Notes under the pieces: model-generated
What the model saw: only the letters and a program-made list of their open reading frames with translations
Told to the model about the DNA's origin: nothing
Databases searched by the model: none
Part shown: one piece after another, positions 1,211-9,982 of the stretch
How positions within the stretch are numbered: position 1 is the first letter of the stretch
Layout: the number at the start of each line of letters is the position of its first letter
Origin: Anatilimnocola floriformis
Lineage (GTDB): Bacteria > Planctomycetota > Planctomycetia > Pirellulales > Pirellulaceae
Direction of reading: 5' to 3'
Assembly: GCF_024256385.1 (NCBI RefSeq)
Contig: NZ_JAMLFW010000001.1
Coordinates: 5,766,001-5,830,000, forward strand
DNA: 64,000 nt
Made by a program: the position numbers and the translations under genes

Positions 1211-1260
1211 TCCCTCTCCTCGGTACTCCGGGGAGAGGGTTGGGGTGAGGGGCCGAAGCG
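1211..1260. repeat. Palindromic interspersed repeat, family A, copy 1
   Basis: Arms CCCTCTCC and GGAGAGGG enclose TCGGTACTCCGG, followed by a G-rich tail ending GGGGCCGAAGCG. Other copies in this window: 7783-7825, an inverted partial at 7873-7897, 8358-8408, 25431-25463 and 50217-50266. It lies just downstream of the minus-strand gene ending at 1276. Confidence 0.75.
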
Positions 1261-6537: not shown

Positions 6538-6852
6538 GGGCAGCCCTTAAAATCTGACTTGAGAATACAAGACGCCGAAAAGATTACAACTCCGTAAGTA
6601 TCGCAACCTAGCCGCCTAAAGGCAAAGAGCAAAGCAGCCGCGCGAGTCATTGAAAAAAGCAATGGCCCCGTCGCCCACAAGCCGGCGACAGTCGTCCCAA
6701 ATAACCACATCGGCCGCTGTAAATAGCGGTAGAAACGCCTGAAGAGGGGCGACTACAACGCGATCGGCAGACAGTCGCTGCCGATCGCACCATACGCGTG
6801 GGCATCCCAATTAGCGGCTAATGCATCCGTCAGCCTGACGCAGAGTCGCCAC
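6538..6852. other. Intergenic region with possible promoter and terminator hairpin
   Basis: This 315-base gap separates the DUF1559 gene from the secretion operon, both on the minus strand. An inverted repeat with 9-base arms CGATCGGCA / TGCCGATCG lies at 6761-6787, placed to end the DUF1559 transcript, although no T-run follows. The remaining 220 bases before 6537 should hold the operon promoter; no clear -35/-10 pair was identified. Confidence 0.4.
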
Positions 6853-7983
6853 TCATTCCAAGACTTCGCCGCCGCAGCGCGACAGCATGGCCGAGAAGAG
6901 CTTGATATCCATCGAGTTCATCAAAAACTGCGTCGAGCCATCACCGAGCAAAAAGTGACAGCCGCCGGCGTGCCAGCTGTGAAACTCTTGGCCGTAGTCG
7001 CAAAAGTTGCCGACCTTGCTCCGTAGCGTCGTGCCGCACGAGCTCCAGGGCGTGCCGATTTGTGAGCTCGGCGGGCTGCTCTGGTCGAAGACGTTCTTGT
7101 GGCCGATCCACAGCGAGTGCAGCCCCTCGGGTGCTTCGCCGAGCACGATCGTGTTCGTCAGTCCGTCGGTGATGTCCTTGAAGCCTACGTTCGGCTCGGT
7201 GGCCATCAACATCACGCCGCGGCCCGTGCCGGCAAGTTGTCCGGTGTCGCCGTAGTTGTTCTGACAATTGGTGCTGGGAAAACAACGCAAGCCGCGCTCA
7301 CCCCAGTTGCCACCGTAATCGCTGCGAGCGTAGGTGGTCGTGTTGTTCGGCGTATCGCCATTCGGTCGCATGAGCGGCGATTTGCCAGACGCCGTTGGGC
7401 ACAGATACACCTTCAACACCGTCTGCCCCGGCACCAAGTTATCGGCGTGGAGATACGGCTCGTTTTGATTGATCGTCGAGTAGAGATTGGTCTGCTCGAT
7501 CCCCGGCAAGATCGCGGCGCCCCAACTCAAACAGGCCCGCGCTCGCGTCACCGGAATCGTCAAGCTCGCCACACCAGGCCCACCCTTGGGCAACATGAAA
7601 TGGACGTCGTGATAATTGTGCAGCGCAATTCCCATTTGCCGGAGATTGTTTTTGCACTGCGTACAACGAGCCGCTTCGCGCGCGGCTTGCACGGCGGGGA
7701 GGAGCAGCGCGACTAAGAGACCGATGATGGCAATCACGACGAGCAACTCAACAAGAGTGAAAGCTGCGCGACAACTTCCGGCTCCCTCTCCTCGGTACTC
7801 CGGGGAGAGGGCTGGGGTGAGGGGCTGATCTACGAGAAGACTCCGGCTGGGCGAGATTAGTACCCGCTTCCGCCCCCTCACCCTAGCCCTCTCCCCGTGA
7901 GTACACGACGCGAGGGAATGATTCCTCGCTACGCGAGGCCGGTGACTGCCAGTGTGGAAATACGCGGAAGAGATACGCGACAT
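6853..7983 (-). CDS. DUF1559 protein with prepilin-like N-terminus
   Basis: 376 residues from ATG 7983, which has AAAGGA nine bases upstream. The hallmark prepilin segment [20 protein letters not shown] is followed by [20 protein letters not shown] and the DUF1559 body ([21 protein letters not shown]-terminal [15 protein letters not shown]). This family is greatly expanded in planctomycetes and is probably exported and assembled like a pseudopilin; its function is unknown. The leader before the prepilin motif is unusually long (about 76 residues) because an inverted pair of family A repeats is translated inside it. An in-frame GTG at 7881 within that repeat, preceded by GGGGAGAGGG, is an alternative start. 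A cobalamin riboswitch lies immediately upstream on the same strand. Confidence 0.85.
7783..7897. repeat. Inverted pair of family A repeats inside the DUF1559 leader
   Basis: A full copy at 7783-7825 (CTCCCTCTCC ... GGGGAGAGGG) faces a partial inverted copy at 7873-7897 (CCCTCACCCTAGCCCTCTCC). Both lie within the frame of the minus-strand DUF1559 gene. The full copy is translated as [14 protein letters not shown], the partial copy as GERARVRGR. Confidence 0.75.
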
Positions 7984-8104
7984 CGAACAGGGTCCTTTCG
8001 GATACTGCGTGCCGCGGCCGCGCGGGGATACCATGGGCGCTAGACTACGAGCGCCGAAACATGCCCCCAGGATGCTTAAAGGCCGAAGCATCGCAGGCTA
8101 CCCG

Positions 8105-8285
8105 AAGGGCCGTATTCTGGCTCGCGAGTCGAACGGTCCGGACGCCTTCCCGCGATCGCCCCGGCTGATTTAGCCGCGCAATCGCAGTGGCATATTGTCC
8201 GCAACCTTCTCGCTTACAGCGGCGGTCCCGCGCCGGATTTACACCGGCTTCCTGTTCTGCGGCGAGGTTTTTGATCCTCCCCACA
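8105..8285 (-). promoter_or_regulatory. Cobalamin (B12) riboswitch
   Basis: Read on the minus strand, the conserved aptamer blocks appear in order: AGGAAGCCGGTGTAAATCCG, then GGACCGCCGCTGTAAGCG, GCCACTGCG, GGGAAGGCG, and GCGAGCCAGAATACGG. These match the B12-box core and the GCCACTG / GGGAAGG / GAGCCAG blocks of the cobalamin riboswitch family. Outer boundaries are approximate. Between the aptamer and the DUF1559 ATG at 7983 lie two hairpins that could form the expression platform (arms GATGCTT/AAGCATC and GGCGCT/AGCGCC). The only downstream gene on this strand is the DUF1559 gene. Confidence 0.9.
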
Positions 8286-8357
8286 AAACGCCCATCGGGC
8301 GTGCGTGAATCCTTTATAGCCTCACAGGCTCGATTCGTAAGGTGTCCTCATGCTCCA

Positions 8358-8408
8358 CTCCCTCTCCTCGGTACTCCGGGGAGAGGGCTGGGGGTGAGGG
8401 GCCGAAGT
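8358..8408. repeat. Palindromic interspersed repeat, family A, copy
   Basis: Almost identical to the copy at 1211-1260, with one extra G in the G-run of its tail and AGTGCG in place of AAGCG at the end. It lies upstream of the riboswitch, between it and the divergent DUF1501 gene at 8576. No gene is seen in the rest of 8290-8575. Confidence 0.75.
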
Positions 8409-8575: not shown

Positions 8576-9982
8576 ATGCTCCGCCTCCTTGCCGACGGAC
8601 AGACGTTTTGTGATGGTCATTCGCGCCGCGAAGCCATGCGCGTTGGTGGTTTGGCACTGGCCGGTTTATCGATGGCTGGAGTTGCACAGTCGCGGGCTGC
8701 GGTGGAAAAAACCAACAGCACTTCGGCTTCGTTCGGCAAAGCGAAATCCGTCATCGTCTTCGGCTTGATCGGTGGGCCGCCGCAGCATGAGACGTTTGAT
8801 CCCAAGCCGGATGCGCCAACCGAGATTCGGGGCGAGTTCGGCGTGATCCCGACGAAGACGCCCGGTTTGCAATTTGGCGAATTGCTACCGCAGACGGCGC
8901 AGTGGTCCGAAAAGATGGCGATCCTGAGGGCCGTCGTGACTGGAGACAGCGCGCATTCGAGCAGTGGCTATCAGATGTTGACCGGCGTGCCGCACGTGCC
9001 GCTGAATGCCGAGAGTGCCACGCCGAAAGCGCCGAACCATTGGCCGTCGCTCGGCGCGCTCGTCCGCACGCAACTCGATCGCGCCGGCCATTTGCCGGCC
9101 GCAGTCACCTTGCCCGAACACATTTGGAACGACGGCAACTTTCCCTGGCCCGGTCAAGACGCCGGTTGGCTCGGTCGGCAACGGCATCCGTGGTTGCTGC
9201 ACTGCGATCCTTCGGCGGCCGATTTTTCGGTGCCCGGTCTCGCACTGCCCGAAGGAATGCCAGCCGTCAGGTTGTCGGAACGGAGGAATCTGCTCGAACA
9301 AATGAACGGCGGCCTCGATTCGCTGGCTCGCTCACGACAAGTCGATGGCTATGGCACGCACGCCCGCAAAGCCATCGATTTGCTGACGAGTTCGTCGGCC
9401 CGTTCGGCGTTCGAGATTTCGCAGGAGAGCGATAAGACGCGCGATCGCTATGGCCGGAGTCGCTTTGCCCAAAGTGTCCTCCTCGCGCGACGGCTGGTCG
9501 AAGCCGGCGTGTCATTGGTGCAGGTCAACTGGACGCGGATCAAAGACCAGCCGAATCAAGGAGGCTGGGACACGCACGCCAAGCACAATGAGTCGTGCAA
9601 AAAGCTCCTCATGCCGATCGCCGATCAATGTTTCTCGGCGCTGCTCGCCGATCTGCAAGAACGAGGTCTGCTCGACGAAACACTGGTGGTGTGGTTCGGC
9701 GAGTTCGGCCGCACACCGAAGTTCAACGCCAACGGCGGCCGCGATCACTGGGGCCGTTGTTTTTCACTGGCGCTGGCCGGCGGCGGAATAAAAGGTGGCG
9801 TGGTGCACGGCGTGAGTGACAAACAGGCGGCAGATCCCGTCGAAGGAATAGTGCGCGCGGCAGACCTGCACGCCACCATTTTTCATTGCCTGGGCTTATC
9901 GCCCGAAACACAATTTCACGACGTCGTCGGTCGGCCGTTGCCGCTCACGCGCGGCCACGTGATTGCGCCGATTGTTTCCTGA
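8576..9982 (+). CDS. DUF1501 protein with twin-arginine-like leader
   Basis: 468 residues. SRREAMRVGGLALAGLSMAG (residues 21-41) is a twin-arginine-type leader. The body matches DUF1501, a planctomycete-expanded family in the alkaline phosphatase/sulfatase-like fold (SVIVFGLIGGPPQHETFDPK; ETLVVWFGEFGRTPKFNANG with RDHWG; ADLHATIFHCLGL near the C-terminus). Presumably exported through Tat. Most family members sit beside a DUF1549/DUF1553 gene; here no such partner adjoins, in contrast to the pair at 50813 and 53965. Biochemical activity is unknown. Confidence 0.85.
   Translation: MLRLLADGQTFCDGHSRREAMRVGGLALAGLSMAGVAQSRAAVEKTNSTSASFGKAKSVIVFGLIGGPPQHETFDPKPDAPTEIRGEFGVIPTKTPGLQFGELLPQTAQWSEKMAILRAVVTGDSAHSSSGYQMLTGVPHVPLNAESATPKAPNHWPSLGALVRTQLDRAGHLPAAVTLPEHIWNDGNFPWPGQDAGWLGRQRHPWLLHCDPSAADFSVPGLALPEGMPAVRLSERRNLLEQMNGGLDSLARSRQVDGYGTHARKAIDLLTSSSARSAFEISQESDKTRDRYGRSRFAQSVLLARRLVEAGVSLVQVNWTRIKDQPNQGGWDTHAKHNESCKKLLMPIADQCFSALLADLQERGLLDETLVVWFGEFGRTPKFNANGGRDHWGRCFSLALAGGGIKGGVVHGVSDKQAADPVEGIVRAADLHATIFHCLGLSPETQFHDVVGRPLPLTRGHVIAPIVS

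Follow-up and report, generated by a model that had tools for sequence, protein, structure and literature searches.

A cobalamin riboswitch precedes a DUF1559 prepilin-like gene in Anatilimnocola floriformis and related genes across the Pirellulaceae

Introduction

The question raised by this locus is whether one member of DUF1559, a large family of prepilin-like proteins, is tied to cobalamin by the riboswitch that precedes its gene. DUF1559 has been described as the largest paralogue group in Planctopirus limnophila, with 68 paralogues of unknown function (PMC10632474), and 74 DUF1559 genes are present in Rhodopirellula baltica (PMC2754498); no ligand is assigned to the family at large in either paper. 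A literature search of partial coverage returned no paper joining DUF1559 with a riboswitch and none on a planctomycete cobalamin riboswitch. Papers in which a pilin and a cobalamin riboswitch occur together appear to concern other bacteria. In the present study, a 64 kb stretch of the A. floriformis genome, referred to here as the window, was analysed and the locus was compared with those of related genomes.

Results and Discussion

The riboswitch and its target

The original prediction placed a conserved cobalamin aptamer on the minus strand at 8105-8285. This segment lies inside the only Rfam match found in the window by cmscan, an RF00174 aptamer running from 8310 to 8091 (Table 1), which covers model positions 1-189 of 189 without truncation and reaches 82.4 bits, above the gathering score of 31.5 (E 9.3e-19; E 3.0e-20 in the search of the whole genome). 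The covariance-model search proposed with the prediction has therefore borne it out. The aptamer sits in the 5′ leader of the DUF1559 gene on the same strand, with the start at 7983 about 120 bases 3′ of it. The gene on the other side, a DUF1501 gene at 8576, is divergent, lies on the plus strand, and cannot be the target. In being full-length, above the curated cut-off, and in the 5′ leader of a gene, the aptamer resembles other class I riboswitches of RF00174; the difference is its target, which is a prepilin-like gene rather than one for B12 synthesis, transport, or an isozyme. The genome (8.9 Mb) contains three cobalamin riboswitches including this one; from their sequences, the second precedes an NrdA gene and the third a gene for a TonB-dependent receptor-like protein.

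Table 1. Features of the riboswitch-DUF1559 locus, in window coordinates.
Feature	Position	Strand	Basis
Class I cobalamin riboswitch aptamer (RF00174, model positions 1-189)	8091..8310	(-)	cmscan
Aptamer-to-start leader, presumed expression platform	7984..8102	(-)	Sequence, terminator scan
Shine-Dalgarno-like AAAGGA	7993..7998	(-)	Sequence; 9 bases before ATG 7983
DUF1559 prepilin-like CDS, proposed start ATG 7983	6853..7983	(-)	ORF list, Pfam, start comparison
Dispersed palindromic repeat, in frame within DUF1559 leader peptide	7784..7815	(-)	Repeat copies
N_methyl prepilin motif (PF07963)	7699..7773	(-)	Pfam
DUF1559 domain (PF07596)	6907..7689	(-)	Pfam; structure model
D152 of DUF1559 protein	7318-7320	(-)	Column comparison, alignments
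NxFxQ signature (N227, F229, Q231)	7081..7095	(-)	Column comparison, alignments
Perfect G+C-rich hairpin between DUF1559 and ABC exporter genes	6759..6788	(-)	Sequence reading

The longest DUF1559 open reading frame (6853-8091) starts within the aptamer match, and the ATG at 7983, preceded by a Shine-Dalgarno-like sequence, appears to be the better start. Between the aptamer and this start, the terminator scan found no hairpin with a U-tract on the minus strand, and a translational mechanism is therefore proposed. No clear on/off platform is seen in the minimum-energy fold of the leader with the aptamer.

Genes beyond DUF1559

DUF1559 had also been described as the only downstream gene. It is indeed the next gene on the strand, but it is followed, after a gap of 315 bases, by a same-strand run of ABC exporter, HlyD, and TolC-like genes at 6537-1730. 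With the strand shared and no gene in between, the riboswitch might govern the whole run as a B12-regulated export system. Against this, the gap holds a perfect hairpin, which is a possible transcript end without a U-tract; the U-tract terminator scan did not report it. No such exporter run accompanied the other riboswitch-DUF1559 loci looked at, in an unsystematic comparison, and a genome of the same genus has two exporters 68-69 % identical to that of the window and no DUF1559 of the subfamily described below as clade III. Such an export system is very unlikely, and the run was treated as a separate unit.

The DUF1559 protein

The predicted protein matches PF07596 (155.7 bits, cut-off 23.3) and the N_methyl motif PF07963 (25.3 bits, cut-off 21.2), features shared with this expanded planctomycete family (DUF1559/SBP_bac_10). 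The motif lies far from the N-terminus: approximately 74 residues precede its FTLVE from the ATG at 7983, and 40 from a GTG at 7881. The length of the leader is attributed to dispersed repeats located in it. Three copies of a dispersed palindromic repeat occur in the window (1212-1243, 7784-7815, and 8360-8391), and its 23-base core has 22 exact copies genome-wide, one of them in frame in the DUF1559 leader. Prepilin processing of this protein may be impaired by so long a leader. At four other loci (L063, L085, L132, and L145) there is, in frame upstream of the DUF1559 prepilin motif, a Cys-rich motif which we take to be DUF1289-like.

The structure predicted for the protein (pLDDT 80, pTM 0.81) has a pilin-type helix and a beta-rich domain. 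Like type IV pilins and type II secretion pseudopilins, it has an N-terminal hydrophobic helix and a prepilin motif, although here the motif stands behind the long leader described above, and sequence and fold searches of the PDB matched pilins alone, weakly or in the helix; the difference lies in the C-terminal domain of approximately 240 residues, for which there was no PDB match at useful scores. The weak pilin matches from Foldseek against the PDB give no hint of a ligand from the fold. What sets the subfamily apart from DUF1559 at large, besides the riboswitch, is a set of signature residues: D152, N227, F229, and Q231 hardly vary within clade III but are uncommon among background DUF1559 proteins, and all four are retained in the window protein.

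Riboswitch targets in the Pirellulaceae

A survey of riboswitches upstream of DUF1559 genes in related genomes, as suggested with the original prediction, was made in 199 Pirellulaceae genomes, 168 of which contain the riboswitch, and targets were counted at the 136 loci where the sequence extends 700 bases or more beyond it on the downstream side. Downstream genes were classed with profiles and single representatives drawn from the loci themselves. The DUF4465, PEP-CTERM, DUF6580, Peripla_BP_2, and FecCD classes were checked against Pfam on representatives; all others come from single-representative similarity searches, and the names NrdA, MetE, TonB receptor, CobQ, and CobO are by sequence reading. 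DUF1559 is the first same-strand gene at 69 of the 136 loci, the largest target class. The other first genes are TonB receptor-like (23), NrdA (13), DUF4465 (8, two of them matched via a large-protein query), PEPx (7), DUF6580 (5), MetE (4), and BtuF-type (3), with four unclassified. In other classes of bacteria, the TonB receptor-like gene is the common target of cobalamin riboswitches. In another family of the same class as the Pirellulaceae, the DUF1559 proteins that come first after the riboswitch score as clade I (210-336 bits).

Few families in these genomes have as many members as DUF1559, which has 109 PF07596 matches in that of A. floriformis, and the adjacency could in principle be due to chance. 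From this number of matches in 8.9 Mb, however, chance pairing would account for a few per cent at most. Within 1.5 kb of the riboswitch, there are 71 cases of a DUF1559 gene downstream on its strand, compared with none downstream on the other strand and two and four at the mirror positions upstream. Together with the reverse test and the clades described below, these counts contradict chance pairing, which is left with practically no probability; the pairing is systematic and no local accident.

Two of the smaller classes contain observations of their own. At seven loci (L073, L087, L147, L059, L074, L077, and L145) the first gene encodes a PEP-CTERM protein with a GPTDT..AIDGAIA start and no other Pfam domain, which appears to be a further protein of the B12 regulon without an assigned function. 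DUF6580 (PF20221) follows the riboswitch at five loci (L038, L044, L010, L011, and L012) and occurs once in the A. floriformis genome (L407); it is a candidate membrane transporter for B12.

Riboswitch-linked clades

In the tree, riboswitch-linked DUF1559 proteins form three groups, none of which contains background DUF1559 members. Those of clade I are mostly alone behind the riboswitch, those of clade II head CobQ-CobO-BtuF-BtuC operons, and those of clade III, present at about one per genome and across many genera, are mostly followed by DUF4465. An AU test does not reject a single origin of all three (p-AU 0.26), nor does it establish one. The window protein falls in clade III, where it forms a group of five with L150, L145, L082, and L136 (full support; 54-57 % identity to the window protein). 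A clade III profile built without it gives it 281.5 bits, and the best of the other DUF1559 proteins of its genome, among 29 scored, reaches 224.6 bits.

The association was also tested in reverse. The clade III alignment, searched against these genomes (E 1e-75), gave 112 matches in 108 genomes, of which 48 coincide with riboswitches already listed and are partly circular, the seeds having come from riboswitch loci. Sixty of the remaining 64, in the finding of which the riboswitch played no part, were scanned, and RF00174 was detected upstream on the same strand in 51 of these (20/20, 15/20, and 16/20), usually adjacent and sometimes one gene away. Over all scanned matches the figure is 99 out of 108; no riboswitch was detectable near the other nine, six of which are in one genus. 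Likewise, in a separately taken set of named genomes, which overlaps the survey in at least one locus (L309), RF00174 was present at six of seven clade III-like loci and at none of 13 lower-scoring DUF1559 loci. The same search found no clade III gene in a genome of the same genus as A. floriformis (G053). The presence of the riboswitch on the same subfamily across genera strongly supports the proposed tie between this DUF1559 branch and cobalamin.

DUF4465 and the role of the operon

Of 111 clade III open reading frames, 82 have DUF4465 immediately downstream, often accompanied by PEP-CTERM. DUF4465 proteins are reported to bind B12 (PMC13398666), and affinities have been given for those of Bacteroides (PMC12751083). 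The B12 acquisition operons of Bacteroides, in which BtuB, BtuG, BtuH, and BtuJ occur with DUF4465 (PMC13398666, PMC12751083), are likewise led by riboswitches and serve in surface capture of B12, and the same role is proposed for the planctomycete loci; these differ in that a DUF1559 pseudopilin comes first, often with PEP-CTERM or large dockerin proteins, and the window locus differs in having no DUF4465. The linkage to DUF4465, with the CobQ-CobO-BtuF-BtuC operons of clade II, favours the suggestion, made with the original prediction, of a role in uptake or surface binding.

Variations on this arrangement were also observed. After one riboswitch-DUF1559 pair, an open reading frame of 1945 residues (L083:3262-9096) encodes three DUF4465 domains and a dockerin domain. 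At L390 and L391, which belong to another family of the class, a clade III-like DUF1559 gene is divergent from a riboswitch-DUF4465 pair. At the one locus of that family where the gene order is the same, DUF4465-like genes come after the clade III gene.

Such an arrangement might also be expected if DUF1559 were a generic secretion or assembly helper, a pseudopilin platform that exports or displays DUF4465 and does not itself handle cobalamin, with the riboswitch serving the whole operon. The frequency of DUF4465 in second place, often with PEP-CTERM, fits this, as does the match of solved relatives in the pilin helix only. However, clade I and II members have the riboswitch without an adjoining DUF4465, a separate NxFxQ signature is kept in clade III, and in A. 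floriformis riboswitch and DUF1559 are retained although no DUF4465 was found in the genome. A helper role is a realistic alternative that is on balance doubtful.

The window locus is atypical in this absence of DUF4465, in a genome whose only FecCD (BtuC-type) match is weak (34 bits), and in its leader stretched by dispersed repeats. It might accordingly be a relic, its partner genes lost, its leader broken by repeats, and riboswitch and gene decaying, as the lack of the gene from G053 could also suggest. Yet the aptamer scores well over the full RF00174 model, and the 300-residue body of the protein is open, keeps its identity to relatives, and has all four signature residues, so that decay is improbable.

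Proposed function

The best reading, and a likely one, is that this gene encodes a cobalamin-repressed DUF1559 pseudopilin that acts in the cell envelope in B12 acquisition. When cobalamin is plentiful, the class I riboswitch in the 5′ leader would repress the gene, as is usual for the class, probably at translation; when cobalamin is scarce, the gene would be released. The product, a type IV pilin-like protein presumably exported and processed as a pilin, would serve in capture or as a scaffold, at the surface or in the periplasm, and would normally act together with a DUF4465 protein that binds B12. It may contact cobalamin directly; such binding is possible, if rather unlikely. Counted against the acquisition reading are the partners missing from the window genome, the lack of a clade III gene in G053, the nine members of 108 without a riboswitch, the long leader, and the lack of a clear platform.

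A tentative extension, one that would not be expected to hold, is that riboswitch-linked DUF1559 proteins are pilin-anchored cobalamin binders and the 70-100 paralogues per planctomycete genome a ligand-specific capture set. If true, this branch would be the first of these paralogues with an identified ligand. The riboswitch names a ligand ahead of any biochemistry, and with DUF1559 subfamilies tied to cobalamin, the question of function becomes a direct test of B12 binding and uptake phenotype. A pilin-like route of B12 acquisition is suggested, alongside the TonB receptor-like proteins that are the second main target of the riboswitch in this survey, and the recurrence of the riboswitch-DUF1559 pair in dozens of related planctomycetes, close to B12-binding and B12-salvage genes, is a specific lead on the function of one DUF1559 branch.
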